64,000 bases of DNA from an uncultured delta proteobacterium (lineage in GTDB: Bacteria; Desulfobacterota; Desulfovibrionia; Desulfovibrionales; Desulfovibrionaceae): contig CAILNX010000034.1 in the NCBI GenBank assembly GCA_903835685.1, positions 1 through 64,000 on the forward strand. Direction: 5' to 3'. The notes under the pieces are model-generated. The model had not been told where the DNA came from and ran no database searches. It saw only the letters and a program-made list of their open reading frames with translations. The position numbers and the translations under genes are program-made. Numbering within the stretch: position 1 is the stretch's first letter; every line of letters starts with the position of its first letter. Shown piece after piece: positions 16,565 through 64,000 of this stretch.

Positions 16565-16577
16565 CCCCTTGAATTCA

Positions 16578-16600
16578 TGGTGCGCCCGGCAGGATTCGAA
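16578..16600 (-). other. Probable integrase attachment site (tRNA-Arg 3' end)
   Basis: Tyrosine integrases commonly use the T arm and 3' end of tRNA genes as the crossover site. Here the integrase stop lies 13 bases from the CCA end, so the core of attR or attL must overlap this segment. The matching direct repeat at the other end of the element is outside the window. Confidence 0.6.
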
Positions 16601-40319: not shown

Positions 40320-40437
40320 GGGATGAGGCCCTGCCTGGGCTGGGGTGACTGAACCATCCCTCTCATGATAAAAGATGTCCTCGCGTCCGGTCAACGCCTT
40401 ATCCGAAAACTCGCCCTGAAAATCCACGGAGCCGCCC

Positions 40438-41571
<1,134 letters not shown>

Positions 41572-41574
41572 AAA

Positions 41575-42300: not shown

Positions 42301-42316
42301 GGCCTCTCCCCTGGCC

Positions 42317-46130: not shown

Positions 46131-46949
46131 TCACCCCTGCCGGGACAGAAACGCCCTCGCCTCCCCCACCAGCCTCTTGGATTCCTCCAACAGCCGCTTC
46201 CAGCTTTCCGGCGCGTGCAGGTCCACCTCCCGGCTTCGGTCGTGATCCCGCAGGCTCATGAGCGCCTTGGGGATGTGCCGGAACACGGCCCCGTTCAGGG
46301 CGAAACGCTGGAACAGCTCGTGGTCGTGGGCCAACAGGTTCGGGTCGTACCAGCCGAAACGCTCGTGCAAATCCCGGCGGTAGAGCTTGGCCACGCCGCA
46401 CAGATACCAGTCCGCGAAACAGGCCTGAAAGGAGTACTCCGGCAGGGAGAACTGCCTGAGTATCCGTCCCCCGCCGTCCACGATGAACATGTCCGCGTAG
46501 ACGAAGTCCGCGCCCTGCTCCAGTACGGCGACCATCTCGGAAAGCATGGACGGAAAGCAGGCATCGTCGGAGGGCACGTAGGTGCAGTATTTCCCGGCGC
46601 AGGCCGCAAAACCCGTGTTCAGGGTCGGGGCCAGGCCCTGATTCTTCTCATGGGTCAGGACGCGCAGGACGCGGCCCTCCCGCTGATACCTCGGATGGTG
46701 GACCCGCCTGATCTCGTCCCGTTCCTGGTCGTAATAACTGGCGAAGGAGCGTTCGTCCTTTTCCACATCCCGCAGGAAATCTTCCAGGACCAAGGTCGTG
46801 CCGTCGGATGACCCGTCGTTGACCAGCACGATTTCCAGATTCGGCCAGTCCTGGAACCAGATCGAATCCAGGCAGGCCGCCAGGAATTCGGCCTGGTTGT
46901 AGGTGGGGACGATGACCGAGACCAGGGGCGGTTGGGACGAGCGCGTCAT
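46131..46949 (-). CDS. Glycosyltransferase family 2
   Basis: ATG at 46949 shares its A with the upstream gene's TGA. The 272-aa product has the GT-A start LVSVIVPTYNQAEFLAACLDSIWFQDWPNLEIVLVNDGSSDGT, a DDACFPSMLSEMV segment, and LLAHDHELFQRFALNG near the catalytic base. It transfers a sugar from a nucleotide donor, probably at the cytoplasmic face. It is the last gene of the minus-strand cluster. Confidence 0.88.
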   Translation of the reverse strand: MTRSSQPPLVSVIVPTYNQAEFLAACLDSIWFQDWPNLEIVLVNDGSSDGTTLVLEDFLRDVEKDERSFASYYDQERDEIRRVHHPRYQREGRVLRVLTHEKNQGLAPTLNTGFAACAGKYCTYVPSDDACFPSMLSEMVAVLEQGADFVYADMFIVDGGGRILRQFSLPEYSFQACFADWYLCGVAKLYRRDLHERFGWYDPNLLAHDHELFQRFALNGAVFRHIPKALMSLRDHDRSREVDLHAPESWKRLLEESKRLVGEARAFLSRQG

Positions 46950-48328
46950 CAAGCCACCTTGGCCCTCCGGGCCTCCACATGCTTGTGCCAGGCTTCCTCG
47001 GCCATGTGGTGGGCCTTGACCAGGTCTTCGGCGGACAGGGCCTCGGTACGGACCACGGCCTGGTGGTAGCCGTCGTAGTCGTCTAAGTCCCGGCTCACCA
47101 GGAAGCCTTTCTCTTCCAACAGCTTGTGGAAGCGGCTGCCCGGAAATGGCGTCGCGATGGAGAGCTGCATGCTGTCCGGGTCCAGTTCGACCATCAGGTC
47201 CATGGTCTGGCGGATGGTGTCCCAGGTTTCGCCGGGCAGGCCGATCATGAAGGTCAGGTGGTAGCGGATACCCAGCTCCCGGGTGATCTTCACGGTTTCC
47301 TTGACCTTTTCCAGGTCCAGACCCTTGCAGGCGGATTTGAGCAGGTCCTGGGACCCGGACTCCACGCCGTATTTCAGACCGGCCAATCCGGCCTCGCGCA
47401 GGGCGGTGAGCATCTCCCGGTCCATCTGGTCGGCCCGGGCCATGATGGCCCAGGGCAGGTTCAGGCCCCGGTCCTTGATCTCCTTGGCCAGGGCCAGGAT
47501 GCGGGGCTTGCCCACGTTGAAGGTGTCGTCGTCGAAATAGAAGGATTTAAATCCGTAGGTCGCAACACAATGTTCGATCTCGTCCACCACGTCCTTGGGC
47601 GAGCGGGTGCGGTAGGTGTTGCCGCCGTACATGAGCTGGGGCCAGGTGCAGAAGATGCACTGGAAGGGGCAGCCCCGGGAGGCGATGATTTGCAGACTGG
47701 GGGTGGGGATGCCGCCGGGGTTGTCCCAGTAGTTCATCATGGGCAGGTCTTCGCGGGCGGGCCAGGGGAAGGCGTCCAGGTCCTTTTGCATGAAGACGTG
47801 GGCGCTTTTCACGGCCTGGCCAGAGGCGTCGCGATAGATGATGCCCGGGACTGCGGACACGTCCCCGCCCTCCTTCAGGCAGTTGACCAGGGAGAGGAGA
47901 TTGAATTCGTATTCGCCGACCAGGGCGTAGTCGATGTCCGGGTGCTGGTCCAGGAAGGAGGCCTCGGAGATGCCGAAATGGGGACCGGCCACCACCATGG
48001 TGGTCTTGGGGCCGAGCATGGCCCGGGTGGCGGCGATGATTTTCAAGTCCACCCGCAGGGAGGCCGAGGAGATCTCGTAGAGAACGACATCAGGGGCGAA
48101 GTCCTTGACCCGGGCCAGGAATTCGTCGTCGCTGATGCGTTCGGCGATCCCGTCCACCAATTTGGTCTCGATCCCGTTCTTTTTCAGCAGCGAGGTGGCG
48201 TAGGCCAGGAAGAAGGGAAAGGGCATGTACGGGCAGCCGTCGTTCTCGAAATGGGGCCAGCGGGAGCCCGCGCGCACACCGTAGAAACCGGGTTTGCTCC
48301 AGGGTGCGTTGCCGAAGAATACTTTCAT
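46949..48328 (-). CDS. B12-binding radical SAM protein
   Basis: The 459-aa product begins [24 protein letters not shown], followed by a cobalamin-binding-like Rossmann domain (to about 150, PDVVLYEISSASLRVDLKI). The radical SAM CxxxCxxC follows in ASRGCPFQCIFCTWPQ. The rest is the TIM barrel with [12 protein letters not shown] and GVESGSQDLLKSACKGL. Its whole architecture matches the protein at 57188-58570. Such enzymes often methylate unactivated carbons or rearrange sugars. Confidence 0.87.
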   Translation of the reverse strand: MKVFFGNAPWSKPGFYGVRAGSRWPHFENDGCPYMPFPFFLAYATSLLKKNGIETKLVDGIAERISDDEFLARVKDFAPDVVLYEISSASLRVDLKIIAATRAMLGPKTTMVVAGPHFGISEASFLDQHPDIDYALVGEYEFNLLSLVNCLKEGGDVSAVPGIIYRDASGQAVKSAHVFMQKDLDAFPWPAREDLPMMNYWDNPGGIPTPSLQIIASRGCPFQCIFCTWPQLMYGGNTYRTRSPKDVVDEIEHCVATYGFKSFYFDDDTFNVGKPRILALAKEIKDRGLNLPWAIMARADQMDREMLTALREAGLAGLKYGVESGSQDLLKSACKGLDLEKVKETVKITRELGIRYHLTFMIGLPGETWDTIRQTMDLMVELDPDSMQLSIATPFPGSRFHKLLEEKGFLVSRDLDDYDGYHQAVVRTEALSAEDLVKAHHMAEEAWHKHVEARRAKVA

Positions 48329-48347
48329 GGTCGATCCCTCTTAAAAA

Positions 48348-48361
48348 AGAATAATTATTCT
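48348..48361. repeat. AT-rich palindrome
   Basis: A perfect 14-base palindrome (AGAATAATTATTCT) between two genes; the upstream gene's stop codon overlaps it. It is the smallest member of the AT-rich elements. Confidence 0.4.
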
Positions 48362-49673
48362 AGGACAGCAGAACGGTTTTCAGTTCGGCGCAGGCCCGGT
48401 CCAGGTTGAAGCGCTGCTCCACGGCCCGGCGGCCCGCCGCTCCCATGGCCTTGCGCTTCTCCCCGGAAAGGAAAAGCTCGACCATGCTTTGCGCGAATTG
48501 TTGCATATCCCGGGCCAAAAGCCCAGTTTCCCCGTGCTCCAGAAAATAGGGGGCCTCGCCCACGATGGTGGAGATGGTGGGCTTGGCGCAGGCCATGTAC
48601 TCGAAGACCTTGGTGGGGCTCTTGCTCTTGTGGAAATGCGAGGGCTCCACCAGGCAGTACAGGCCCACGTCCATGGCCGCCAGATAGGCGGGCATCTGGT
48701 CCGGGGCCAGCCAGCCCGGGGCCTCCATGTTATACTCGGCAAACCGCGTGGCCATCTGCTCCTGGACCCGCTTGTAGAAGTCCCCGCCGCCCACGATGGA
48801 CAGTTTCAGGGCCTCGCGGTGGTACTCCCCACGTTTCTTCAGCTCCTCGCAAGCCAGGGCGAAGCTCTCCACCATGAACATGACGTTGTCGTAAGTGAAG
48901 TCCTGGAACACCGTGCCCACCCAGGAGAAGAGCACGGGCTGGCCGGGGGTCCTGGGGGCGTCCACGGGCTGGAATTTCTCGATGTCCACATAGGTGGGGA
49001 TGACCGGGATGTTCCGGAAATGCCGCCCGATGCGGTCCTCCAGATCCCGGCTGGAGACCACGCAGGTGTCGCAGTAGGAGGCGAAGAAGTCGAAGAGCTT
49101 CTTGACCTGCACCGTGCCAAAGACCCGGTAGTCCAGGATCCAGTCGTCGATGTCCATGACGATGCGCGAGCCGTTCACCAGTTTCAGGGCCAGGGGCACC
49201 AGGAAATCGTAGTTGGGCCGCTGCTCGAAGATGATCATCCGGCCTTTGGGCAGAAGCTCCCAGAAGGCGATGAAATTGTAGATCATCTTCTCCACCTCCC
49301 AGATGCGCCGGAAGGGGAAGGGGAAATGGTGCAGGGTGCGGAAGCGGTCCCAGTAGGCGTAGACCGAGGCGTTCACCCCGATCTTCTTCAGATGGTCGCA
49401 AAAATGGTAGCAGCGCACCCGGGTGGGGGCCACCTTGTGCCCCTCGAAGGAGAAGAGCACCACCTCCCGGCCCTCCCAGGCCAAGGCCCCGGCCGACAGC
49501 ACGCGCAGGCTGACCAGAACCCACTGGCCCGCCAGGCGCAGGGCGGCCACGGGCAGGAGCACCACGAACCAGGCCCCCATGAGCGCCAGGGCCAGGACCA
49601 GATCCAGGCGAAAGAGGACCTGGCGCTTGAAGCTGATCCAGCATTTTTCGGAAAAGGTTTTGGGCGCGGCCAT
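48360..49673 (-). CDS. Glycosyltransferase (GT-B fold, family 4-like) with N-terminal membrane segment
   Basis: ATG at 49673, with CAGGAGTAAAGACC upstream, gives 437 aa. Residues about 20-65 are strongly hydrophobic (VLALALMGAWFVVLLPVAALRLAG), anchoring the enzyme. The C-terminal half has GT-B features: FSWVGTVFQDF, LSIVGGGDFYKRVQEQM, GLYCLVEPSHFHKSKSPTKVFEYMACAKPTISTIVGEAPYFLEHGETGLLA. The first CDS residues sit 7 bases past the upstream stop. Confidence 0.82.
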   Translation of the reverse strand: MAAPKTFSEKCWISFKRQVLFRLDLVLALALMGAWFVVLLPVAALRLAGQWVLVSLRVLSAGALAWEGREVVLFSFEGHKVAPTRVRCYHFCDHLKKIGVNASVYAYWDRFRTLHHFPFPFRRIWEVEKMIYNFIAFWELLPKGRMIIFEQRPNYDFLVPLALKLVNGSRIVMDIDDWILDYRVFGTVQVKKLFDFFASYCDTCVVSSRDLEDRIGRHFRNIPVIPTYVDIEKFQPVDAPRTPGQPVLFSWVGTVFQDFTYDNVMFMVESFALACEELKKRGEYHREALKLSIVGGGDFYKRVQEQMATRFAEYNMEAPGWLAPDQMPAYLAAMDVGLYCLVEPSHFHKSKSPTKVFEYMACAKPTISTIVGEAPYFLEHGETGLLARDMQQFAQSMVELFLSGEKRKAMGAAGRRAVEQRFNLDRACAELKTVLLS

Positions 49674-49680
49674 ATGGTCT

Positions 49681-51705
49681 TTACTCCTGAAAGGTCCGGG
49701 GAAGAGGGACAGAGGCCGGGGCCTCGGCCAGGGCCGGGTCCAGGGCCAGGGCTTTCTCGCGGCTGGCCCGGGCCTCGGCCGGACGCCCCAGGGCGGCCAG
49801 CAGAAAGGCCCGGTCCAGATGGAAACGGGCGAAATCGGCCTTGAGGCTAACGGCTCGGTCGTAGGCGGCCAGGGCCGGGACGGAGCGGCCGAGCTGGGCC
49901 AGGACATTGGCCAGCCGCCAGTGGAACCAGGCAAAGCCCGGGTCCAGAGCGGCCGCAGCCTCCAGATGGGCCAGGGCCTCGGCCGGGCGACCCAGGCGTT
50001 GCAAGACCATGCCCAGGTTGAACCGGGACCAGGGGAAATTTCCGTCCAAATCCACGGCCCGGGACAGATGGGTCAGGGCCTCCACGTCCCGGGACAGGGC
50101 CATGAGGCTCACGCCCAGGTCGTAGCGGGAAAAGGGCTTGCCCGGGTCCAGGGCCACGGAGGCGGAAAGCGACTCGGCGGCCCGGGCGTGGTCCTTCACA
50201 TCCTGGAGGGCCAGGCCGAGCATGTGCCGCACATGGGCATTGTCCGGATAGAGCCGGGCGGTCTCCTCCAGCAGGGGCAGGGCCTCGGCGGCCCGGCCCC
50301 GGCGGCGGAGCAGGTCGCCCAGGTCGGCCCGGGGATAGGCGTGGGTGTCGAGCTGCACGGACCGGGAGAGTTCGGCCTCGGCCCGGTCCAGGTCCCCGCG
50401 TCCCTGGAAGACCAGGCCACGCAAATGGCAGGCCCGGGCCTGGTAGCCGCTCCTGGCCGGGACGAGGTCCAGGAGGGCCAGGGCCTCGTCCTCCTGGCCT
50501 GAAAGGCGCAAGGCCCCGGCCAAGTCCACGGCCACGGCCAGGCAGCGGGGGGACTCCTCCCAGGCTTGACGCAGCAGGGCCACGGCCGCCTCCTGGTCCC
50601 CCAGGTCGGACAGGGCCTTGCCCAGGCCGTGCCTCGCGCCCGGGGACTCGGCCCGGGCCAGGGAGGCTGAAAACACGCGCCGGGCCTTGCGCGGCTCTTC
50701 CTGTTTCAGCAGATCGAACCCCAGCTCCATGAGCCGCTGGGCCTTGCCGATGTACTGGCAGCCCATGAGGCAGAGGCGGCAGGAGCGCCGGAAATGCTGG
50801 AATCCCCGCCAGGGGGCCGAGGCGTAGAGTTCTTCAGGAGAGAGAGTCGAAAGCGACCCCAGGGGCTCGCAGAACAGGCAGCCCCGGGCCTCCAAGGCGG
50901 AATTGACGAAGATGAAGCGGTTGGCCCCGCAGACCTGTCGGGGTCCGCCGGGCCGGGTGAAAAATTCAGGCAGGGCCGCGAGCATTTCCAGGGAGTTGTC
51001 CACCCGGGCCGGTTCGCGGGCTTTGAGGTCGGACAGGGCCGCCACCTGCTCGGCCAGAAGATTCAGGAACGTCGCATCGGCCTCGGGCCGTACCACAGGT
51101 CCGGGCTTCGGGCCGTACGTGTCGCCGTCAGGACCGTACACCGGGCCAAAGGGGTGGAAAGGCTGGAAGAGCACGCTGTCCAGGCCCAGGCCCAGGAGCT
51201 CCCGGGCCAGATCGGCCAGATGGGCCACGTTGTCCGGGGAGACGATGGTGATGGTCCCGATCTGGGCCGGACAGGCCGCCCGGCGCGGGTCGTCGGCAAT
51301 GGCCCGCAAATGGCCCATGACCGTGGCAAAGGTCCCGGCCTTGCCCCGGGAGCGGTCGTGGGCCTCGGGGTCTAGGGCGTCCACCGAGACCTTGAAGGAG
51401 GACACGCCCAGGTCCGCCAGGTGGAAGAACAGGTCCGGGGTCAGCAGGGTGCCGTTGCACACCAGTTGGGTTTCCTGGAAATGGCGGGCCGAGGCCGCGC
51501 AGATCTCCGCGCAGCCCGGGTGGACCAGGGGTTCGCCCCCGGTCAGCGTCGTGAATTTGACGCCGCTCGCGGCCAGGGGTCCGAACACCCGGTCCTCGAC
51601 CTCGGCCGCGCTTTTGCCCGGACCCGTGCGCTCGGGCAGATAGCAGCCCGGGCAGGCCAGGTTGCAGCGCTCGGTGAGCTGGAAATGCAGGGTGTGCGGG
51701 TTCAC
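49681..51705 (-). CDS. Radical SAM protein with C-terminal TPR array
   Basis: The start is GTG 51705 after AGAGG. The 674-aa product begins with LTERCNLACPGCYLPERTG (CxxxCxxC) and a SPASM-like Cys region (GCLFCEPLG, CRLCLMGCQY), which may bind additional Fe-S clusters. From about residue 325 it is a TPR array (GARHGLGKALSDLGDQEAAVALLRQ, AWFHWRLANVLAQLGRSVPALAAYDRAV and others). The TPR tail suggests protein interaction or scaffold function. Confidence 0.82.
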   Translation of the reverse strand: MNPHTLHFQLTERCNLACPGCYLPERTGPGKSAAEVEDRVFGPLAASGVKFTTLTGGEPLVHPGCAEICAASARHFQETQLVCNGTLLTPDLFFHLADLGVSSFKVSVDALDPEAHDRSRGKAGTFATVMGHLRAIADDPRRAACPAQIGTITIVSPDNVAHLADLARELLGLGLDSVLFQPFHPFGPVYGPDGDTYGPKPGPVVRPEADATFLNLLAEQVAALSDLKAREPARVDNSLEMLAALPEFFTRPGGPRQVCGANRFIFVNSALEARGCLFCEPLGSLSTLSPEELYASAPWRGFQHFRRSCRLCLMGCQYIGKAQRLMELGFDLLKQEEPRKARRVFSASLARAESPGARHGLGKALSDLGDQEAAVALLRQAWEESPRCLAVAVDLAGALRLSGQEDEALALLDLVPARSGYQARACHLRGLVFQGRGDLDRAEAELSRSVQLDTHAYPRADLGDLLRRRGRAAEALPLLEETARLYPDNAHVRHMLGLALQDVKDHARAAESLSASVALDPGKPFSRYDLGVSLMALSRDVEALTHLSRAVDLDGNFPWSRFNLGMVLQRLGRPAEALAHLEAAAALDPGFAWFHWRLANVLAQLGRSVPALAAYDRAVSLKADFARFHLDRAFLLAALGRPAEARASREKALALDPALAEAPASVPLPRTFQE

Positions 51706-51718
51706 CGGGGCCTCTCGC

Positions 51719-53137
51719 TTACAGGGCCAGGCCTTGGCGCACCAGGAGGTGCTCCAGGTAGGTGTGGTTCACGGCATAGGCGTCCAGGCCCATCCAGCGG
51801 GACACGGACACGGACAGCTCCCGGAAGTTCGGGACAGCCGGGAAGACGCGGGCCGGGTAGCCCTTGTAGGACGGGGGGATGTGGGCCAGGTTCTCGTGGT
51901 AGAGATAGCGGCGGCAGGTGCGGCCGATCTGGGCCAGGTATTCCTCCACCTGGGCCAGCTCCATCTCGGAAAAACTGATGGTGTTGATGAACAGGTCCAC
52001 GCTCATGTTTGCAAGCCGGGGAACCATGAAATTGGGCATGAGCAGGATGTCGTAGTCCTCGAACAGGGCCGGGGTGAGCGCCAGGTCCGGGTCCTCAAAG
52101 AGCAGGATGCGTTTATCCGGATAGGCCATGTTCAGATAATAGGATGAAATGATGAGGTTTTCCGGCAGGTCGAAATTCACGTAGGCCACGGGCCGGCCCA
52201 TGCGCTGGAGAAAATAGGCGAACCCGCCGAATCCCCCGCCGATCTCGGCCACCACGGGCCGGGGAACATCGGCCAGGAGCCGCAGGCAGTTGGCGGCCCG
52301 GAAATGGTTGGGAAAGGAGTTCCAGTTGATGAGCGCCCCGTCCACCAGGACCCCGTAGGGGTTGCCGATGGGCGGCAGGCCAGCCTCGCGCAGGTCCGGG
52401 GCCGGGTCCAGGCTGTATTGCCAGACCTGAAAATTGTGGGCCAGCCAGGGCAGGCTCCTGGCCTTGCAAAAACGCTTGAACTCCTGGCGGCCGCCCATGA
52501 TGTACAGGCTGGCGTCGTGGCGGCAGAAATTGTTCAGGGTCTCGGTGACCGGACCCACGGCTGCGGCCGGGTCCAGGCTTTCCAGGGCTCTGGCCGTGTC
52601 CGCCAGGAGCATTCCCCAGTTCTCCCCGGCCCGGTACAGAGGAGGGATATTGGCTGTCTCGGCCCTGGCCCGCAAATAGGCGTCCAGCAGTCGGCGGACC
52701 AGGGCCTGTTGCTCCCGGACCGGAACCAGCGGGGCCACGTCCTGGATCATCTTGGTCCCGATGGGATGGGTGATCGGGGTGGCCTTGACCCGGTCCCCGC
52801 AGAGCTCCATGTGCTCGGAATAGAGGCAGACGTCAAAGCCCAGGCGCTCCAGGCAGGCGGCCGGGTCCTCCAGAAAGGGCACGATCCGGTCCAGGGGCAG
52901 GCCCAGACGCACGGCCTCTTCCCGCACCTGGGCCACGGCCTGGCAGGCGATGACCAGAAAATCGTGGGCCTGGCCGGGCGCGTCCGCTGGCGCGATGACC
53001 TTGCGGCCCAGCCAGTCCGCGCCCCATTTGTCCGGGTCGGCGTCCACGTAGGCCGTGACGCACTGCGCGTTCACACCCAGGGCCTTGTACAGGGCCTGGG
53101 CGCCCAGGCCCGCGCCCCAGACCAGAATCCTGGTCAT
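51719..53137 (-). CDS. Putative sugar O-methyltransferase (TIGR04371-like) with Rossmann N-terminal module
   Basis: The 472-aa product has an N-terminal module (ILVWGAGLGAQALYKALG...VTAYVDADPDKWGADWLGRKVI; residues 1-90) like the PglD-type nucleotide-binding domain. The methyltransferase part has VVAEIGGGFGGFAYFLQRMG, FDLPENLIISSYYLNMAYPDKRI and FINTISFSEME, the pattern of the putative sugar O-methyltransferase family TIGR04371. It overlaps the upstream radical SAM gene by four bases. Substrate is presumably a sugar on a glycan. Confidence 0.78.
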   Translation of the reverse strand: MTRILVWGAGLGAQALYKALGVNAQCVTAYVDADPDKWGADWLGRKVIAPADAPGQAHDFLVIACQAVAQVREEAVRLGLPLDRIVPFLEDPAACLERLGFDVCLYSEHMELCGDRVKATPITHPIGTKMIQDVAPLVPVREQQALVRRLLDAYLRARAETANIPPLYRAGENWGMLLADTARALESLDPAAAVGPVTETLNNFCRHDASLYIMGGRQEFKRFCKARSLPWLAHNFQVWQYSLDPAPDLREAGLPPIGNPYGVLVDGALINWNSFPNHFRAANCLRLLADVPRPVVAEIGGGFGGFAYFLQRMGRPVAYVNFDLPENLIISSYYLNMAYPDKRILLFEDPDLALTPALFEDYDILLMPNFMVPRLANMSVDLFINTISFSEMELAQVEEYLAQIGRTCRRYLYHENLAHIPPSYKGYPARVFPAVPNFRELSVSVSRWMGLDAYAVNHTYLEHLLVRQGLAL

Positions 53138-54876
53138 GCGCTTGTCCTCCCGGTCGGGGTCTGCCCCGGTTTCCCGAGGGCTTCCAGGCCCTGGCGGAAG
53201 CGCTCCTCGTCCGGTTTCAAGTCCATGGCCCGGCGATAGGAGACCTCGGCCTCGGCCTTGCGGCCCAGGGCGGCCAAGGCCTCGGCCAGGCGGAAGTGGA
53301 ACCAGGGAAAGGAGGGGTCCAGGTCGGCGGCCCGGGCCAGGTAGGTGGCGGCCTTGCCCGGCTCCTGGTCCTCCAGGTGCAAAAGGCCCAGGTCGAACAC
53401 CGGCCAGGGAAAGTTCGGGGCCATGTCCGCAGCCTTGTGGAACTCGTCCCGGGCCTCGTCCCGGCGGCCGGTGCGCTTGAGCACCACGCCCAAATCGTAA
53501 TGGGGATAGGGGAAGTCCGGGTCCAACTTGATGGCCCGCCGGAACTCGGCCTCGGCCTCCAGGTTCTTGCCCTGGCGGGAGAGTTCCAGCCCCTGGTCGA
53601 AACGGGACTGGGCGTTGTCCGATCGCAGTTTGTCGAATTTCTCTTCCCAGCGCCGCACCAGGTCGTAATCCACGGTTTTTATGAGCGGCATCTTGCGCAC
53701 GATGTTCATTTCGTAGTGGTTGAAGTCCGTGGTCAGAAGCTGGCCAGCGGCTTTGAGTTCCTCGAAATAGTGGGTGCCGGGAAAGGGCACCATCCAGTTG
53801 TAGTAGAAGGCCGAGGGGGCCAGTTCCTCGATGAAGGAGTAGTCCAGGGCGATGTCTTCCTCGGTCTCACCGGGCACGCCCACCAGGATGTTGGCCAGGG
53901 TCAGCTTGCCCGTGCGCTTCCAGATGCGCCCGGCTTTCAGGTTCATTTCCCGGGTGGTCTGCTTGTGCATGAGTTTTAATTTGCGATCCGAGCCGGACTC
54001 GAATCCGAAGCTGATCAGGTTGCAACCCGTGGCCGCCAGGCGGTCGGCCATGTCCTGGTCGAAGAAGTCCACCCGGGCGCTGATGTCGTATTCCACGTCC
54101 ATCTTGCGCTCGGTGATGATGTCCGTGAACTCGCGCACCCGGGTGCGGTTGACCACGAACATGTCGTCCATGATGAAGAATTTGCGGATGCCCATGGCCA
54201 GGAAGCGGTCCATCTCGGCGATGATGCTTTGCGCCGAGCGCATCTTGATGCGCGGGCCGTACAGGGCCTTTTGCACCGGCTGACAGTACTTGCACTGACC
54301 CGGGCAGCCCCGGCTGGTGACGATGAACCCGCAGTGCTTGCGCCGGGCGATGTTCTCGTACACCGGGGAGAGATAGGGCAGGGGCCGGTTCTCGATGTCT
54401 TTCAGCGGGGTCGGGTGGATTTCGTGGGGCGGCTTGCGGCCCTGGCTATAGGCGGCGGCGATGTCCACCATCACCTCCTCGCCCTCGCCCAGGACCACGT
54501 GGTCGAATTCCGGGATGGCCAGGCCGTCGTAGGGCGCGCAGGTCACGTGCGGCCCTCCGGCCACGGTGGGGATGCCCAAGGACTGGGCGATGGCGCACAA
54601 ACGTATGGCGAACTCCCGGTTGGGCGTCTGGAATCCGACACCGAGCAGCCCGGGCTTCATTTCCTTGAGCCGGGTCTCCACCTCTTCCCAGCCCGTGACC
54701 AGACGCAGGTCCAGGTACTCCACCTCGTGCCCGGCGGCCTTCAAGGCCCCGCCGATGAGGGTCAGGCCGTAGGGGATGATGTAGGTGTCCAGCCCGTCGA
54801 AAGTGGGCGTGAAATGACGCTCGAAAGCGTCGAACCCGATGTTGCGGATGCCAACGTGGCTCAAGACGACCAGCAT
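53134..54876 (-). CDS. B12-binding radical SAM protein with C-terminal TPRs
   Basis: The 580-aa product has a cobalamin-binding-like domain (YIIPYGLTLIGGALKAAGHEVEYLDLRL, VAGGPHVTCAPYDGLAIPEFDHVVLGEGEE), a radical SAM domain with CPGQCKYCQPV, FFIMDDMFVVN, and FGFESGSDRKLKLM. Residues 425-560 hold three TPR units (FDQGLELSRQGKNLEAEAEFRRAIKLDPDFPYPHYDLGVVLKRTGR and next). Its TPR tail resembles that of the 49681 gene. Confidence 0.86.
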   Translation of the reverse strand: MLVVLSHVGIRNIGFDAFERHFTPTFDGLDTYIIPYGLTLIGGALKAAGHEVEYLDLRLVTGWEEVETRLKEMKPGLLGVGFQTPNREFAIRLCAIAQSLGIPTVAGGPHVTCAPYDGLAIPEFDHVVLGEGEEVMVDIAAAYSQGRKPPHEIHPTPLKDIENRPLPYLSPVYENIARRKHCGFIVTSRGCPGQCKYCQPVQKALYGPRIKMRSAQSIIAEMDRFLAMGIRKFFIMDDMFVVNRTRVREFTDIITERKMDVEYDISARVDFFDQDMADRLAATGCNLISFGFESGSDRKLKLMHKQTTREMNLKAGRIWKRTGKLTLANILVGVPGETEEDIALDYSFIEELAPSAFYYNWMVPFPGTHYFEELKAAGQLLTTDFNHYEMNIVRKMPLIKTVDYDLVRRWEEKFDKLRSDNAQSRFDQGLELSRQGKNLEAEAEFRRAIKLDPDFPYPHYDLGVVLKRTGRRDEARDEFHKAADMAPNFPWPVFDLGLLHLEDQEPGKAATYLARAADLDPSFPWFHFRLAEALAALGRKAEAEVSYRRAMDLKPDEERFRQGLEALGKPGQTPTGRTSA

Positions 54877-54981
54877 GGGAACCTCGTTCGGTGTTCAGGC
54901 GGCCTTATGACCTGCCGCCACGGGACCGGCGAAAAACAACGCGCCAAAAAGATTGCAAACCCCGCGCCAAAGCATTGTCCA

Positions 54982-56316: not shown

Positions 56317-57188
56317 GCCCCCCGCCTTTGGGCCGAACAGGCACGGGCCAGCTCCCGCCAGTCCCAGAACAGGGCTCCGGCCAGAAAGAGCAGGCTGACC
56401 AGGGCGTTGCCTGGGTCCCGGTCCTGGAAATCCTTGGCCAGCAGGCGCAGGGCCTTTTTCAGGTCCCGGAGGTTGGCGGCCAGGGTCCCGGCCAGGTCAA
56501 CGGGCGCGTAGCTCCCGAAATAATGCCATTTCCAGCAGGTCCGGGCCACGGACAGGGCCGTGTCCTGGCGCAGATGGGTGCAGCGGGCGGCCGGGGTGTA
56601 CACCAGGGTGCAGCGGTCCCGTATCTTCTCGCAGAGCTTCACGTCCTCGGCATTGGTCCGGCAGCGGGGATCGTAGCCCCCGGCCTCGGTGAGCGCCGCG
56701 CGGCGGAACAGGGTGTTGGACCCGAACAGAAAGGGCGGCTTCTCCCGCCGCACAGGCCCCCAGCTCTGGCGCATGTGCGCGTCGCGCCAACGGTCCCCCG
56801 GGGCGATTCGGTGGCCCTCGATAAGCTCCCCGCCCACGCCCCAGACCACCTCCCGACCCGGGCCGTCCATCTCGGCGGCCAGGGCGGCCAGCCAGTCCGG
56901 CTCGGCCACCACGTCGGCGTCGAGCGAGGCCACCAAGGCCCCGGCGGACTCGCGCAGGCCCGTGTTCCGGGCCTCGGCCAGACCCAGGTTCTCCCCGTGG
57001 GACACCACCCGCAGGGGGACCGGGGACCACGCGCCCAGTGTGCGGGCCATTTCCGCCGTCTTGTCCGTGGACCCGTCGTCGATAATCAAAATTTCGCGCG
57101 GGAGCAGGATCTGGGCGAATACCGCCGGAAGCACCCGCTCCAGAAAGGGCTCGGCATTGAAGCAGGGCAGGTACAGGGAGATGTCCAT
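56313..57188 (-). CDS. Glycosyltransferase family 2
   Basis: The ATG overlaps the TGA of the upstream gene by one base. The 291-aa product has DISLYLPCFNAEPFLERVLPAVFAQILLPREILIIDDGSTDKT, LDADVVAEPDWL with the D-x-D-type acid pair, and FRRAALTEAGGYDPRCRTNAEDVKLCEKI. These mark an inverting GT-A enzyme. It belongs to the same co-translated set as the flanking radical SAM genes. Confidence 0.88.
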   Translation of the reverse strand: MDISLYLPCFNAEPFLERVLPAVFAQILLPREILIIDDGSTDKTAEMARTLGAWSPVPLRVVSHGENLGLAEARNTGLRESAGALVASLDADVVAEPDWLAALAAEMDGPGREVVWGVGGELIEGHRIAPGDRWRDAHMRQSWGPVRREKPPFLFGSNTLFRRAALTEAGGYDPRCRTNAEDVKLCEKIRDRCTLVYTPAARCTHLRQDTALSVARTCWKWHYFGSYAPVDLAGTLAANLRDLKKALRLLAKDFQDRDPGNALVSLLFLAGALFWDWRELARACSAQRRGA

Positions 57189-58570
57189 CAACCCCGGACC
57201 TCCCGAAAGGCCTTCCAGGCCTGGCGGAAGGCCTCGGCCCCGGCCTCGATCTCCGTGCCGGTCAATTCCTTGGTGCGCACCACGCAGCCCTGGCCGCCGT
57301 CGTACAACTCGTGGTCCGTGGCCAGAAGATAGCCCTTGTCCTTGGCCCAGGCGTGGAAGCGGGTGCCCGGGAAGGGTGTGGCAAAGGACAGTTGCAGGGA
57401 GTCCGGGGACAGCTCCAGGGCCAGGTCCAGGGTCTGGCGCATGGTCTCGGCCGTCTCGCCCTTGAGCCCCAGGGTGAAGGTCAGGTGCACGCGCACCCCG
57501 ATCTTCTTGGTGTAGGCCACCATGCGCCGGGCGGTCTCAAGGTCCAGACCCTTGCCGCAGGCGTCCACCACGCTTTGGCTCCCGGACTCGATGCCGTATT
57601 TCACGGCGAACAGCCCGGCCGCCCGCAGGGCGTCCAGGGTCTCCTCGTCCATGCCGTCGGCCCGGGCCATGACCGCCAGATGCACGCCCAGGTCCTTGTC
57701 CCCAATGGCCTGGGCCAGGGACAGGACCCGGGCCTTACCCAGGTTGAAGGTGTCGTCGTCGAAATACACGGTCTTGAACCCGTAGCGGCCCACCACCGTG
57801 GCCATCTCCTCGGCCACATCCTGCGGGTCGCGCACCCGGTAGACGTTGCCCCCGTACATGGTCTCGGGCCAGAGGCAGAAGTCACAGCGGTGCGGACAGC
57901 CCCGGCTGGCCAGCATGTTGACCATGGGCTCGGGCACCCCGCAAAAGGGGTCCCGGTACTTGAGCATGGGGAAATGCCCCCAGGACGGCCAGGGCAGGTC
58001 GTCCAGGCGGCCCAGGTCCCGCCGGGCGTTGGCCCGGATGGCCCCGTTTTCCCCGCGCCAGGCCAGGCCACGCACCTTTTCCGGCGCAAATGAACCGGAC
58101 AGGAGCCCCTGGACCATTTCGGCCAGGGTCCATTCGTATTCGCCGATGAGGCAGAAATCCACGCACCCATTGTCCGCCAGGGCCGTCTCCGGATGGATGG
58201 TCACCTGGGGACCGGCCCAGGCCAGCAGGGCCTTGGGCAGAAGCTCCCGGGTGCGCCGGGCGTGCCTTGCGTCCTGGGCAAAGGAGGCGGCCGCCGTCTC
58301 GGCCAGGACCAGGTCCGGGGCAAAGGCCACGACCTCGGCCTCGTACTCTTCGTTTGTGAGCCCCTCGGCTATGGCGTCCAGGGCCTTGACTTCTGCCCCC
58401 CCCTGTCGCTCCAGGAGGGCGGCGGCCTGGGCCAGGAAAAAGGGGAAAGGCAGGTAGGTCAGGCTTTTGGGTCCGTCGGCCCGCATGGTGAAGGGCCAGC
58501 GCGATCCGGCCCGCACCCCGTAGAGGTGGGCGGATTTCTTCCAAGGGGGGTTGGCTAGGAGGATGCGCAT
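57188..58570 (-). CDS. B12-binding radical SAM protein (paralogue of 46949-48328)
   Basis: ATG at 58570 lies inside the end of the upstream epimerase gene. The 460-aa product begins [24 protein letters not shown] and has [24 protein letters not shown] as the radical SAM site, and [37 protein letters not shown]. The parallels to the protein at 46949-48328 (same order, same motif spacing, same N-terminal GVRAGSRWP) show gene duplication. Confidence 0.87.
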
Positions 58571-59628
58571 GACGCGGCCACACAGCCCTTGTGGATGTCG
58601 GTCATGATGGCCATGAGATCGTACTGGTACTCCCAGGCCGGGTAGTGGGTCTGGAACTTGTTCACGTCGCTCACCCACCACATATGGTCGCCGATGCGGT
58701 TGGTCTCCTGGTAGGTCCAGTCCATGGTGTTGCCGGAAATCTCCTCGCAGATGCTGATGGCCTCCAGCATGGAGCAGTTGGAGTGGCGGCCGCCTCCGGC
58801 GTTGTACACCTCGCCCGGCCGGGGCTTTACGTGGAAATGCCAGAACATGTTCACCAGGTCGTGGGAGTGGATGTTGTCCCTCACCTGCTTCCCCTTGTAC
58901 CCGAAGACCGTGTACGGCCGCTTGGTCACCGCGCAGCGCATGAGGTAGTTCAAAAACCCGTGCAACTGGGTGCCGGAGTGGGCCGGGCCGGTGAGGCAGC
59001 CGCCCCGAAAACACACGGTATTCATGCCGAAATAGCGGCCGTATTCCTGCACCATGACGTCGGCCGCCACCTTGGAGGCCCCGAACACGCTGTGCTTGGT
59101 GTGGTCGATGCTCATGTCCTCGTCGATCCCGCGCTCGAAATACGGGTGCGCCCGGGACACCTCCCAGCGGGTGGGCAGCTCCTCCAGGGGCAGGAAATTG
59201 GGCGTGTCCCCGTACACCTTGTTGGTGGAGGTGAAGATGAAGGAGGCCGTCGGGCAATGCTTGCGGGTCATCTCCAGGAGCACCAGGGTGCCGTTGGCGT
59301 TCACCGTGAAATCCGTGATGGGGTCCGTGGCCGCCCAGTCGTGGGAGGGCTGGGCCGCTGTGTGGATGACGATTTTGATATCCGCCCCGAACTCGGCGAA
59401 GATCTTCTCCATGGCCGGGAGGTCCCGGATGTCCCCGGGCCGGTGGGTGTAGCGGGGAAGCTCGGCTTCCAGGATTTTGCGGTTCCAGTCCGTGGAGGCC
59501 TCGGCCCCGAAAAAGACCTGGCGCATGTCGTTGTCCACGCCGACCACGAGAAAGCCCTTATCGTGGAAGAAGCGGCAGGTTTCCGAGCCGATGAGTCCGG
59601 CCGAGCCAGTGACCAGTGCGATGTCCAT
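58555..59628 (-). CDS. NAD-dependent sugar epimerase (CDP-tyvelose epimerase-like)
   Basis: The 357-aa product has the Rossmann start [51 protein letters not shown] and the SASKVA-type lysine region ([19 protein letters not shown]), whose usual Tyr is replaced by the sequence HSVFGASK. The [19 protein letters not shown] segment is typical of the CDP-paratose/tyvelose epimerase branch. It makes an activated sugar donor for the cluster's glycosyltransferases. Confidence 0.83.
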
Positions 59629-59640
59629 TGTTTCAAGCCC

Positions 59641-60705
59641 TCACAGGATGTGTCGCAGGGATTCCCTGTTTTTTTCGATCCAGCAGGCGATGTCGGCCAC
59701 GATGTCCCGGGCCGAGGTCCGGGGCGCCCAGCCCGTGGCCGCCCGCACCTTGGCCGTGTCCGTCAGATACCAGGGGATGTCCCCCACCCGGGTCTCGGGC
59801 ACGGCCTGGATGTCAACTTTTTGGCCGGTGGCCTCCTGGGCCAGGGCCGTGAGCTCCGCAAGGGACACGCTGACCTCGGGGCCGCCGCCCACATTGTAGA
59901 CCTGGCCCTGGTGCCGGGGCAGGTCGTCCATCTGGAGGCGGACGAGCTCGTACAGGTCGGCCACGTGCAGGATGTCCCGCACCTGCTTGCCCGTGCCCCC
60001 ATAGCCCAGGTATGCAAGCTTGGCTCCAAAAATGTGCTTGGCCACCCACAGGACCATGAAGCCCTGGTCCACCTTGCCCATCTGCCAGGGGCCGGTGAGC
60101 ACCCCGCAGCGGTTGACCACGGCGGTGAGTCCGTACATCTCCCCGTATTCGGCCATGAGCAGCTCCGAGGCCAGCTTGGTGGCCCCGTAGAGCGTGCGCG
60201 CCCCGTCCAAGGGAAAGGTCTCGGCGATTCCGGCCGGGCTGACCCCGGGCAGGGTCTGGGGGCCGGACAGCTCGAAGCGGGTGGCGGTCTCCTGGAAGAT
60301 TAGGTCCCGGATGGGGGCCATGGGATAGACCCGGCTGGTGGACAGGAAGATCATGGCCGCGCCGCGCATGCGGGCCAACTCCAGGCAGTTGATGGTGCCC
60401 AGGAGATTGGTGTTCAGCAGATAGGCGGGCGAGCCGCCGTACCCGGCCAGGACCGAGGGCTCGGCCGAGCATTCCAGGATCAGGTCCGGGTTCCCGGCCG
60501 CGTCCAGGTCCTCGGGGCTCCTGATGTCCCCGTGCAGGAAGTCCACCCCGCCCTCTTTCAGGCGCGGCAGGTTCAGTTCCGAGCCCCGACGCTTCAGGTT
60601 ATCCAGGGCCGTGACCTTGACCCCGGGCAAATCGCGTTTCAGGGACAGGCCCAGGTTGGAACCCACGAACCCGGCCCCGCCGGTGATGAGGATGTGCTTA
60701 AACAT
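59641..60705 (-). CDS. NAD-dependent epimerase/dehydratase
   Basis: The 354-aa product opens ILITGGAGFVGSNLGLSLKRD with the NAD-binding GxxGxxG. STSRVYPM and YGATKLASELLMAEYGEMYGL (Y-x-x-x-K) supply the catalytic residues, and NRCGVLTGPWQMGKVDQGF is typical for this group. It is a second enzyme of the extended SDR family and probably acts on the same or a related sugar nucleotide. It lies 12 bases upstream of the other epimerase. Confidence 0.87.
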   Translation of the reverse strand: MFKHILITGGAGFVGSNLGLSLKRDLPGVKVTALDNLKRRGSELNLPRLKEGGVDFLHGDIRSPEDLDAAGNPDLILECSAEPSVLAGYGGSPAYLLNTNLLGTINCLELARMRGAAMIFLSTSRVYPMAPIRDLIFQETATRFELSGPQTLPGVSPAGIAETFPLDGARTLYGATKLASELLMAEYGEMYGLTAVVNRCGVLTGPWQMGKVDQGFMVLWVAKHIFGAKLAYLGYGGTGKQVRDILHVADLYELVRLQMDDLPRHQGQVYNVGGGPEVSVSLAELTALAQEATGQKVDIQAVPETRVGDIPWYLTDTAKVRAATGWAPRTSARDIVADIACWIEKNRESLRHIL

Positions 60706-61648
60706 GGCATCCGGCCTCCAGCCGGTCGATCATTTCCGTGACCTGGGCCAGGGCATGGCCGCAGAAAACCCCGGCCTGCTCCCGAGCCTCAGGCTCGCGC
60801 AGGGACATTTCTCCCAGGACCAGGGGCCAGGCGTAGACCCGGCCCTGGAACCGGGCCAAGGCGTGGCCCTTGTACTCCGCCAGGGCCTCCTGGGTCCGCT
60901 CGTCCTGGTGGCGCACCCAGATGCAACTCACGCACAGCTCGTAGGGCGGATGGTGGCGGATAGTGGCGAAGTCCCGCACATGGCCGAGGGCGTGGCGCAG
61001 CTCGAAATCCCAGCAGCAGGCGTTCACCGTGCCGTCAAAGGCCACGGTAAAGGTGTTGTCCACGATCCAGGGGCAGGCCCGGGCGTGGGCGGCCGGGTCT
61101 GCATTCACCGGCTTGTATCCGGTGAGGTACCCGGCCCAGTTGGCGGCCTGATAACTCTCGAAGCGGTCCAGGGTCAGGCCTTCGGCCAGGGCGTACAGCT
61201 CCTCCTGGGTGTTGTCCGCCTCGGCGTAGACCATGACGCCCGAGCCGCTCTTCTCCTTCCAGGCCAGGACCTCCTTGTAGCGGGCGCAGGAGTCCGGGGT
61301 GTGCAGGCTGACGTGCAGCCAGTCCAGGCCGCCTGCGCTCAAATCCGCGAACATGGCCTCGGTCAGGAGAATCCCGTTGGTGTGCAGGCCCAGGTACAGG
61401 TCCGGCCGCAGGGCCTTGGCCCGGGCCGCCCAGTCCACGCACTGGGGATGGAGCAGGGGCTCGCCCCGCCAGCTCAGTTCGGTGTAGCCGCTTGCGTGCT
61501 CCAGGCAGGCCAGGAAGGTGGCCTCGTCCATGAGCCCGGCCGGAACCTTGGCCTTGCCCTGGAAGCATTGGGGGCAGCGCAGGTTGCAGGTGTTGGTCAG
61601 CTCGATGGAGCGGATGATGCCTGGACCGAAATCGTTTGCATTACTCAT
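60698..61648 (-). CDS. Radical SAM/SPASM-type protein
   Basis: The 316-aa product starts SIELTNTCNLRCPQCFQGKAK (CxxxCxxC) and ends with Cys residues (VNACCWDFELRH, YELCVSCIWVRHQ) that could bind an auxiliary cluster. It is shorter than most SPASM enzymes, ending in CGHALAQVTEMIDRLEAG. It overlaps the epimerase start by eight bases. Confidence 0.83.
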   Translation of the reverse strand: MSNANDFGPGIIRSIELTNTCNLRCPQCFQGKAKVPAGLMDEATFLACLEHASGYTELSWRGEPLLHPQCVDWAARAKALRPDLYLGLHTNGILLTEAMFADLSAGGLDWLHVSLHTPDSCARYKEVLAWKEKSGSGVMVYAEADNTQEELYALAEGLTLDRFESYQAANWAGYLTGYKPVNADPAAHARACPWIVDNTFTVAFDGTVNACCWDFELRHALGHVRDFATIRHHPPYELCVSCIWVRHQDERTQEALAEYKGHALARFQGRVYAWPLVLGEMSLREPEAREQAGVFCGHALAQVTEMIDRLEAGCHV

Positions 61649-61677
61649 GAAAGCTCAAGGCTCCTGGTGCTGTGTTC

Positions 61678-61752
61678 CAAGAACAAGATAAGAAAAGAAA
61701 AATAAAATATACATATAACTTGTTATAACTACTTATCTTTTCTTTTTCTTTG
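61678..61752. repeat. AT-rich intergenic element
   Basis: A 75-base AT-rich block, starting CAAGAACAAGATAAG and ending CTTTTTCTTTG, with purine-rich left and pyrimidine-rich right arms that could pair. It fills the 127-base gap between two radical SAM genes and is the largest of the AT-rich elements. Confidence 0.5.
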
Positions 61753-61775
61753 TGGCCTCTTTCGTGGATTCCCCA

Positions 61776-64000
61776 TCAGTACGGCGGATTCCGGAACAAC
61801 GGGTTCTTCATGGGGTGGACCGGAGGCGTCCAGGGAAGGCCCAAATCCGGCAGCAAATCCCCGTAGGCCGCGAAATCGAATCTCCCCTGGTCCGAGCATT
61901 GGGCCAGCTCCCTGGCCCGGTCCAGGAGGGCCTTGGCCTCTTCCATCTGACCCAGTCCCGCCTTGGCTTTTGAGGTGCAGTACAGGGCGAAGATGTTGTT
62001 CGGGTCCTTGGCCAGGAAGGTGGCGTAGATGTCCACGGCCCTCTGGTAGGTCCCGTCCCGCAGGCTGATGCTGCGGGTGAAATTGTACTCGTAGCTCATG
62101 CGGCAGACCAGGTCGGACAGCTCGTAGGCGCTGACCTCCTCGGTGTCAAAGGCCCGCAAATAGAAGGAATTGCCGGTCCACTGGGACACGTCGTCGGCCT
62201 TGAAATAGCCCCGCTCCACGTATTTGCGAAATATCTCCGTGCCCACCAGGGGGATGGCCTTGGAGAACACGATCCAGTCCGTGCTCAAGGTCTTGGCGTA
62301 GGCGTAGGACTCGGCCATGAGCTCTTTGGTCTCGTCGGGCAGGCCCACGATCCAGTAGCAGATGCTCATGACCCCCTTGCTCCGCACGTACTCGATCAAG
62401 CGCCGGGCCTTGTCCAGGTTGCAGCGCTTGTTGATGATGTTCTTCTGGGTGTACTCGGACCCGGATTCGATGGCAAAGGTGAAGGCCGAGCACCCAGTGT
62501 CCACCATGGCGTCGATGATCTCCTCGTCCATGGTGCCCACGTGCAGGCCGTTGGGGAACTGCATCTCCAGGCCCGGGATGTTCATGGCCCGCAGTCCGGC
62601 CAGGATGGCCAGGAGCCGCTTCTTGTTGGCGGTCATGAGGTCGTCCCAGGGCACGAACAGGCTCACCCCGTATTTCTCGTACAGGATGCGGGCCTCGGCC
62701 AGCACGTTATCCACCGAGCGAAAGCGCACGTTGCGGCCGTGCACGGTGTGGGCCGAGCAGTAGGTGCATTTGTTCGGGCAGCCCCGGGTGGCCTGGAACC
62801 CGGCCGAGCGCTTGGTCCCGGGCGGCATGAGCCAGTTGCGCCAGCCGGTCTCCGGGGCCAGGTACCCGTCGATCTCCAGGATGTCCCAGTCCGGAAAGGG
62901 CAGCTCGTCCAGGTCCGGCACGGGCTCGGCCATTTCCAGGCCGCCCAGTTGCACCAGATCCTTGCGGGCGTAGAGCCCCTTGATCCCGTCCATGGACCGG
63001 CCCTGGCCCTTGCGGGCCACGAAGTCCACAAAGGCGATCTCCCCTTCCCCGCGCAGCACGTAGTCCACCAGATGGTTGCGCAACAGGATGGGCGTGGTGT
63101 TGCTGGCGTGCACCCCGCCCACGATGGTCACGGCCTGGGGCCAGAGTTCCTTGAGCACTTCCAGGATGGGGTTGAACATGGAGTAGGACACGGAGAAATT
63201 GAACGAAATGGCGATGATGTCCGGGGTAAATCCCACCGAGCGCACGGTCTCCTCCCGGATGAACTCGCGCTCCTGGTCAAAGACCACGGAATCCTTGAGC
63301 CGCAGGGCGTAATCGATGAGCCCCACCCGACCCAGGTCGCTGTGCTTCTTGATGGTCGAGGACAGATACAGAAGGCCCAGGGGCAGGACCAGCTGGGGGA
63401 AGAGCGTCTTTTCCGAGAGCAGGATGTCCCGGATGGTTCCGTAGCTGTAGAGCGGAAGATGCACGAAGAGCACGTTGGGACGGCCCGAATTCCGGGCCAT
63501 GTCGTGCCGGGCCTTGCGCCTGGCGGTCAGGCGGCGGGTGCGCGGCGCGGCCTGGTTTTTTTCCCGGCAGGCGCGGACCACGGCGGCCAGGCCGGTCCGG
63601 CCCATGGAGGCCAGCAGGCCCTCGGCCCGCATCAGCATGCCCTCGTCCCCGTAGCGCGTGAATTCACGGATGAACAGCCGCACGGCGGCCTTGGGACGGC
63701 CCATGGCCTCAAGAACCTGGGCCTGCTTGCAGGCCAGTTCGCGGAAAAACGGCCGCACGGCCTCGATCTCGGCCAGCACGGCCAGGGCTTCCTGGGAACG
63801 CCCGGCATAGCGCAGCACATCGGAGATGTTCAGCTTCACGTCCAGGCGGAAGGGCTCGCGCTCCAGGACCTGGCCAAAGGCAGCCACGGCCCGGTCAAAG
63901 TCCCTGGCCGCCGAGAGCACGCCGCCCCGGGTGCGCAGGGCCTCCATGTCCCCGGGGTTCTCCTCGATGACCCGGTCCAGGAGGGCCAGGGCCTCGGCAT
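61776..64000 (-). CDS. TPR-B12 radical SAM-TPR protein (5' end outside window)
   Basis: The frame is open from the right edge, so the N-terminus is missing. The visible 740 or so residues are TPR-like (to about residue 130 of the visible ATG-started part), then a cobalamin-binding-like domain (LVLPLGLLYLSSTIKKHSDLGRV), radical SAM with CPNKCTYCSAHTVHG, FVPWDDLMT and AIESGSEYTQKNI, and one more TPR near the end (AVDIYATFLAKDPNNIFALYCTSKAKAGLG). An internal Met at 63500 could be a separate start, but it lacks a good ribosome site, so one fused protein is favoured. Confidence 0.8.
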   Translation of the reverse strand, partial: AEALALLDRVIEENPGDMEALRTRGGVLSAARDFDRAVAAFGQVLEREPFRLDVKLNISDVLRYAGRSQEALAVLAEIEAVRPFFRELACKQAQVLEAMGRPKAAVRLFIREFTRYGDEGMLMRAEGLLASMGRTGLAAVVRACREKNQAAPRTRRLTARRKARHDMARNSGRPNVLFVHLPLYSYGTIRDILLSEKTLFPQLVLPLGLLYLSSTIKKHSDLGRVGLIDYALRLKDSVVFDQEREFIREETVRSVGFTPDIIAISFNFSVSYSMFNPILEVLKELWPQAVTIVGGVHASNTTPILLRNHLVDYVLRGEGEIAFVDFVARKGQGRSMDGIKGLYARKDLVQLGGLEMAEPVPDLDELPFPDWDILEIDGYLAPETGWRNWLMPPGTKRSAGFQATRGCPNKCTYCSAHTVHGRNVRFRSVDNVLAEARILYEKYGVSLFVPWDDLMTANKKRLLAILAGLRAMNIPGLEMQFPNGLHVGTMDEEIIDAMVDTGCSAFTFAIESGSEYTQKNIINKRCNLDKARRLIEYVRSKGVMSICYWIVGLPDETKELMAESYAYAKTLSTDWIVFSKAIPLVGTEIFRKYVERGYFKADDVSQWTGNSFYLRAFDTEEVSAYELSDLVCRMSYEYNFTRSISLRDGTYQRAVDIYATFLAKDPNNIFALYCTSKAKAGLGQMEEAKALLDRARELAQCSDQGRFDFAAYGDLLPDLGLPWTPPVHPMKNPLFRNPPY

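Follow-up and report, generated by a model that had tools for sequence, protein, structure and literature searches.

Most of the radical enzymes known to act on sugars come from the biosynthesis of antibiotics and hopanoids. HpnJ and AprD4 act on sugar moieties without methylating them, the HpnJ reaction being cyclitol-ether formation and the AprD4 reaction a deoxygenation (PMC13142503, PMC5461906, and PMC12583986), and AprD4 requires a reductase partner, AprD3 (PMC5461906). The CDP-tyvelose 2-epimerase TaTyvE has the triad Thr124, Tyr164, and Lys168, and either N125A or K126A abolishes its CDP-glucose activity (PMC13098431). Cytoplasmic binding of flagellin by a tetratricopeptide repeat (TPR) domain has a precedent in FlmG (PMC7591256). 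The sequence analysis here was applied to a 15-gene cluster rich in radical S-adenosylmethionine (SAM) genes, located mainly in the window, i.e., the whole analyzed stretch of 64,000 nucleotides (C34:1-64000). C34 is the 80,867-base contig CAILNX010000034.1 of assembly GCA_903835685.1 (3.94 Mb in 65 contigs), and its source was probably a member of the family Desulfovibrionaceae.

The 15 genes lay on the minus strand from C34:67955 down to 46131. Extension past the right edge of the window at 64000, as proposed in an earlier sequence-only reading, completed gene dblB12 to C34:65714 and added two further same-strand genes up to 67955. This was a real, unusually radical SAM-dense glycan cluster and, on present evidence, not a categorically new system. 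We consider it probable that the cluster makes an unusual sugar, either rearranged by radical chemistry or deoxygenated, and attaches it as part of a surface glycan, plausibly on flagellin.

The transcription order began with an FkbM methyltransferase gene (C34:67131-67955, outside the window, first gene of the unit), a TPR protein gene with a glycosyltransferase-like N-terminus recognized by eye and lacking a Pfam match there (C34:65797-67065, outside the window), dblB12 (61776-65714, in the window to 64000; a B12-radical SAM/TPR/B12-radical SAM tandem of 1312 residues with two PF04055 and two PF02310 stretches), SPASM2 (60698-61648; PF04055 1.4e-12, with a weak SPASM-like C-terminus at 21.3 bits against the PF13186 cut-off of 21.5), the short-chain dehydrogenase/reductase (SDR) genes SDR2 (59641-60705) and SDR1 (58555-59628) (both PF01370), B12b (57188-58570; PF04055 3.7e-20), and the family 2 glycosyltransferase gene GT2b (56313-57188; PF00535 8.1e-30). 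It continued with RossSPASM (54982-56316; PF04055 and PF13186, Rossmann-like N-terminus by eye), B12TPR (53134-54876; PF02310 and PF04055 plus C-terminal TPRs), a NanM-type sugar O-methyltransferase gene (51719-53137; no Pfam match), rSAMTPR (49681-51705; PF04055 5.9e-18 plus a C-terminal TPR array), GT4 (48360-49673; family 4, GT-B fold, PF13692), B12a (46949-48328; PF04055 and PF02310), and GT2a (46131-46949; PF00535 7e-28, last gene of the unit). The start of GT4 was placed at about 49673 rather than 49934. Pfam confirmed the two family 2 and one GT-B glycosyltransferases and the two epimerase-type SDRs that had been read from the sequence, and TIGR04371 confirmed the sugar O-methyltransferase (106.5 bits, cut-off 44). 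The NanM-type methyltransferase and RossSPASM had apparently similar Rossmann-like N-terminal domains by eye, a part lacking a Pfam match. Between adjacent genes, the largest overlap was 16 bases and the widest gap 127 bases; the gaps of 31, 105, and 127 bases were larger than the tiny ones first reported.

All seven radical SAM genes claimed for the one strand were present, with eight radical SAM modules; each gene and each module matched PF04055 over the cut-off and carried CxxxCxxC, the motif whose absence had been raised as a possible objection. PF02310 was matched in four of the seven genes, over the cut-off in those starting at 46949, 53134, and 61776 and at 30.6 bits against 32.1 in B12b (57188). 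Four B12-type genes thus agreed with the sequence-only reading, but the module count came to five because the gene at 61776 holds two (scored for PF02310 as one protein); these five modules are predicted to be B12-type radical SAM enzymes. Genome-wide, 46 Radical_SAM matches were over the cut-off (47 listed), and eight fell in the 17.8 kb of the cluster, against 0.21 expected for that length (46 in 3.94 Mb; Poisson P about 7e-11 for a location fixed in advance, the test presuming an independence that is false here since two module pairs are in-cluster duplicates). The two halves of dblB12 were 47.6% identical to each other, B12a and B12b were 45.8% identical in-cluster paralogues, and the TPRs showed 44% identity between the glycosyltransferase-like protein and the dblB12 linker and 40% between rSAMTPR and B12TPR. 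By these identities the cluster grew partly by duplication, and the number of distinct chemistries may be lower than the eight modules suggest; on our own reading of the duplicate pairs, they would represent six lineages.

The AlphaFold model of B12a was confident (mean pLDDT 94.3), and AprD4 was its closest PDB entry by sequence, by Foldseek, and by VIA-align (Z 37.2, root-mean-square deviation 2.8 over 426 residues, 25% identity, next entry 29.5), a shared fold being no proof of function and folds outside the VIA-align listing possibly existing. The AprD4 structure was solved with paromamine, according to the PDB entry title. By sequence, AprD4 was likewise the nearest known enzyme of B12b. 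AprD3 is an SDR, and AprD4 is not known to contain cobalamin. HpnJ was the best NCBIfam profile for both B12a and B12b (258.8 bits each against the TIGR03471 cut-off of 577.6), and the AprD4 profile NF033070 gave 154.2 bits for B12a and 109 bits for B12b against a cut-off of 500. B12TPR scored best with BchE (115.3 bits), and the portion of dblB12 inside the window scored best with a P-methyltransferase family (167.1 bits), both far under the NCBIfam cut-offs. Since neither HpnJ nor AprD4, the closest characterized counterparts of B12a and B12b, methylates its sugar substrate, the C-methylation taken as default in the sequence-only reading was not the leading reading, although its glycan locus gained support from B12a neighbor families and shared neighborhoods (see below); methylation would stay possible for the B12TPR and dblB12 modules.

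The HpnJ profile matches, together with a hopene cyclase found elsewhere in the genome (C32), might instead suggest modification of hopanoids or other lipids by B12a and B12b as HpnJ-like enzymes, and the cyclase counts against a surface glycan. This we hold to be very improbable: the scores were less than half of the cut-off, identity to the annotated HpnJ of Mycetohabitans was about 30%, neither HpnI nor HpnK was assigned among the 15 genes (a genome-wide search for them was not made), the family 2 glycosyltransferases matched HpnI-type profiles far under the cut-off, the hopene cyclase sits on another contig, and glycosyltransferases are common beside B12a homologues.

The top PDB match of both SDRs was CDP-tyvelose 2-epimerase (TaTyvE, 9rl0; 2e-35 for SDR1 and 6.9e-40 for SDR2). 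In the alignments, (i) of the 20 SDR1 rows, 18, including the window, carried Phe where the catalytic Tyr would stand, all 18 keeping TNK, while Tyr occurred in the two most distant matches (L082 and L115); and (ii) SDR2 kept Tyr in eight of eight rows and had TSR or SSR in all seven rows covering the TNK segment, the SDR2 match of L082 being left uncounted because it was the gene already matched as SDR1. Neither protein of the window thus combined the Thr-Tyr-Lys triad with the TNK segment, SDR1 having Phe for Tyr and SDR2 having TSR for TNK. SDR1 and SDR2 have thus lost complementary pieces, and the pair may operate together; SDR1 was also found without a detected SDR2.

The recurrence of the cluster in other genomes was partial (relatives' genes were called by a codon-score script, so their starts are approximate, and names such as PseB, PseC, and Wzm/Wzt rest on visual inspection of the translations except where Pfam is stated). 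In uncultured delta proteobacterium AM4_bin-625 (G507), eight of the 15 genes (rSAMTPR, SDR1, SDR2, B12a, GT4, NanM, GT2b, and B12TPR) had homologues within about 11 kb (C19:154682-165750) at 44-72% identity, its B12TPR homologue being too short for TPRs (422 residues); a Maf-like (PF01973) gene lay beyond this stretch with one radical SAM gene between. In genome G040, a stretch holding NeuB (Pfam) and PseB/PseC-like genes carried GT2a (67% identical) and GT2b homologues at its one end and B12a-GT4-rSAMTPR at the opposite end, while SDR2-SDR1 was on a separate contig. G424, of the same phylum, had SDR1-SDR2-B12a-GT4 consecutively with an ABC transporter gene nearby (by eye), and L121, from an Acidobacteria metagenome-assembled genome, had SDR1-SDR2-GT2-B12a-GT4-GT4. 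The core of twin SDRs, B12-radical SAM, and GT4 therefore recurs in G424 and acidobacterial L121. The neighborhood search suggested by the sequence-only reading thus returned co-occurrence of subsets, but all 15 genes together were found in no other-genome stretch read; its remark that the order matches no known glycan pathway was fair, as the literature search, which did not reach subscription papers, found no description of such a radical SAM-rich glycan cluster. Conservation across the family was considered and rejected: eight of 118 other relatives had B12a (E<=1e-60), and 394 other genomes drawn from the phylum yielded SDR1 (E<=1e-85) in 15 cases, the window's own genome being subtracted from these tallies. 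The tandem dblB12 (E<=1e-40) had one match each in six of the 118 relatives, none covering both halves (the best, in G059, reached 32% along a single half), and no plasmid record had dblB12 covered to 80% at one place.

B12a homologues were further examined as a class of loci. Their 117 immediate neighbors from 72 loci (of 121 listed genes and 79 loci) included 21 Radical_SAM, 12 Glycos_transf_1, 9 ABC_tran, 8 SPASM, 7 Glycos_transf_2, and 4 Wzt_C matches, counts in which one protein can match several families, which come from the 25 of 63 families shown, and which, as a point against the glycan reading, stand without a baseline from random radical SAM or glycan loci. The neighbor list excluded genes longer than 700 residues, at stretch ends, or with stops; also left out were two genes of L097, a locus that is the syntenic cluster, a doubtful L124 open reading frame, and one gene of L157, and L083 was outside the set. 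Loci L180 and L181 did not enter the analysis. Among the families listed, radical SAM enzymes and glycosyltransferases are thus the most frequently matched neighbor families of B12a homologues. In the best 80 of 323 B12a-found loci, a home-made radical SAM profile counted at most 10 modules per 18.5 kb in L141, followed by 9 in L137, 8 in L156, and 7 in L148 and L149, while 40 of the 80 held one module only, many loci being short; the three loci with 8-10 modules (L137, L141, and L156) were from Omnitrophota, and L148 was from an archaeon. The same 80 loci also held GT4-type (11), GT2b-type (8), B12TPR (4), and rSAMTPR (3) matches. The window thus holds one instance of a recurring kind of radical SAM-rich glycan locus that was not found described in the literature search.

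Two plasmids carried related gene sets. Plasmid NZ_CP106952.1 of Eleftheria terrae (L191) had, by annotation, a PIG-L deacetylase, a WecB-type glycosyltransferase, a B12a relative, a second cobalamin-dependent protein, an SDR, and two family 4 glycosyltransferases, a compact set recalling the HpnI-HpnK-HpnJ steps; plasmid pDCAR1 of Solidesulfovibrio carbinolicus (L192) had a pseudaminic-type locus in which, over the 40 kb shown, five genes were annotated as radical SAM. Radical SAM enzymes with SPASM domains are often peptide modifiers. This background, the E. terrae set, and the likeness of B12a to AprD4 would fit a specialized-metabolite cluster, aminoglycoside-like or RiPP-like, with no structural glycan. 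We regard such a cluster as improbable: no transporter or aminotransferase family was matched among the 15 genes, and the largest gap of 127 bases left little room for a precursor gene (small or other-strand genes were not searched for).

More weight belongs to an acceptor other than flagellin for the same sugar chemistry, i.e., a polysaccharide exported to the surface or a lipid-linked glycan resembling O-antigen, with the export machinery located elsewhere in the genome. Wzt-like ATPase genes adjoined the radical SAM arrays of L137, L141, L148, and L149, the last three of which also had an ABC-2 permease-like gene (all by eye); these genes, the ABC_tran and Wzt_C neighbors, the ABC transporter gene of G424, a single Wzt_C match in the own genome (C14), and a hydrophobic N-terminal stretch of GT4 (by eye) speak for export. 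Against it, the Pfam scan matched no transporter, flippase, polymerase, exporter, or initiating transferase family among the 15 genes, nor any Wzm/Wzt genes as in an ABC-exported O-antigen locus; Maf-like or NeuB-type genes occurred in the G507 and G040 contexts; and a protein partner would fit the TPR fusions better. An exported glycan is accordingly a serious but not a favored possibility, and lipid-linked or exported glycans rank second to flagellin as acceptor.

Under the favored reading, a radically modified sugar for a surface glycan, the paired CDP-tyvelose-epimerase-like SDRs would act on a sugar, probably nucleotide-linked; HpnJ/AprD4-like B12a and B12b would take hydrogen from a sugar carbon, leading to deoxygenation or skeletal rearrangement; the remaining B12-radical SAM modules and the three SPASM/TPR radical SAM enzymes might add further radical modifications; and the NanM-type and FkbM-type enzymes might O-methylate the product. 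The family 2 glycosyltransferases and GT4 would assemble the glycan in the cytoplasm, and the TPR arrays, fused to four proteins, may tether them to a shared partner or acceptor, the latter presumably a surface polymer. The fusion of TPRs to the cluster's own proteins left the earlier suggestion of TPR partners as regulators unsupported. Substrate, reactions, step order, acceptor, and TPR role are here inferred, while gene content, spacing, families, partial recurrence, SDR active-site changes, and the AprD4-like fold of B12a were observed directly. Flagellin is our first-choice acceptor, at a little less than an even chance; it draws support from the Maf-like neighbor in G507, from NeuB- or pse-type genes in the vicinity in G040, G059, and S. 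carbinolicus, from the TPR fusions in light of the FlmG precedent, and from the lack of any exporter match in the cluster.

Several observations weigh against this reading: (i) the Phe of SDR1 argues against a stand-alone working C2-epimerase; (ii) Pfam matched no sugar nucleotidyltransferase in the cluster, and both SDRs stayed below any 4,6-dehydratase cut-off; (iii) the parts were often found apart, with SDR2 and a B12a-type gene each in four of the 15 SDR1-found loci (E<=1e-15, some short) and with SDR1 in three and SDR2 in two of the best 80 of 323 B12a-found loci, while none of the 118 other relatives matched RossSPASM at E<=1e-25; (iv) flagellins (C17, C18, and C29) and two Maf-like (PF01973) genes (C56) of the own genome were not near the cluster, and the cluster locus, unlike a flagellin glycosylation (Maf) island, had no Maf-like PF01973 or flagellin gene found in it; and (v) B12a homologues occurred in many Omnitrophota and archaea, some beside ABC exporters, so flagella cannot be their general role.

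We tentatively raise, as a proposal that we think doubtful, that the twin SDRs plus an AprD4/HpnJ-like radical SAM enzyme could constitute an undescribed sugar pathway in which the SDR1-SDR2 pair is joined to radical skeleton rearrangement or deoxygenation, that radical-built surface glycans might be common to Desulfobacterota, Omnitrophota, and some archaea, and that radical SAM arrays might there replace ordinary sugar-modifying enzymes. If the locus does build a surface or flagellar glycan with eight radical modules, radical chemistry would be a routine glycan-diversification tool of anaerobes; the Tyr-to-Phe SDR family, the tandem two-module B12-radical SAM protein, and the TPR-tethered radical SAM enzymes are concrete targets, and S. 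carbinolicus DSM 3852, a named strain with a related radical SAM- and pse-rich locus, makes related chemistry testable.

The cluster was preceded, 43 bases upstream on the same strand, by a fusion gene of aminotransferase, CbiA, and GATase_3 resembling cobD-cobQ cobalamin genes (C34:67999-70629; 6999-9629 in L006), and cobalamin synthesis may possibly be co-expressed with the B12-type radical SAM enzymes. It was followed downstream, on the plus strand, by a VTT-domain gene. Elsewhere in the window, MotA- and MotB-like genes lay between two proteins with cNMP-binding/CRP-like matches (39135-44274; cNMP-binding protein, MotA-, and MotB-like genes on the minus strand). A likely integrated element (4316-16654), in which G+C dipped to 41-46%, adjoined tRNA-Arg (16578-16654); it encoded, in coordinate order, a type III restriction-like protein (4316-7294), a DNA methylase (8339-10351), an SNF2-type helicase (10508-13414), and a phage-type integrase (15473-16564).

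Compared to known systems, the cluster showed the following likenesses and differences. HpnJ, the enzyme of the bacteriohopanetetrol (BHT) cyclitol ether, shared with B12a and B12b the top NCBIfam profile and is likewise a B12-type radical SAM enzyme and works on a carrier-attached sugar (PMC12583986 and PMC13142503), while B12a and B12b differed in their scores below half the cut-off, the roughly 30% identity, and a cluster without HpnI/HpnK assignment. The radical SAM 1,2-diol dehydratase AprD4 was closest to B12a in both sequence and fold, with SDR genes near B12a as a further likeness, but identity in the fold alignment was 25% and the profile score stayed far below its cut-off. CDP-tyvelose 2-epimerase (TaTyvE 9rl0 and 1orr) was the best PDB match, with TNK kept in SDR1 and YxxxK in SDR2, but Tyr was changed to Phe in SDR1 and TNK to TSR in SDR2. 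The nonulosonic-acid (pseudaminic-type) loci of Desulfovibrionaceae, as annotated in S. carbinolicus pDCAR1, combine radical SAM genes, pseB/pseC/pseF, a NeuB-type synthase, and glycan genes, and similar gene kinds were seen by eye in G040 and G059; the 15 genes of the cluster differed in including no pse/neu gene, the NeuB genes of the own genome being at C35 and C56. FlmG, the TPR-glycosyltransferase of Caulobacter flagellin, shared a TPR on a glycan enzyme and cytoplasmic protein glycosylation (PMC7591256), but the TPRs of the cluster were fused mainly to radical SAM enzymes, and FlmG was likened by description rather than by sequence.

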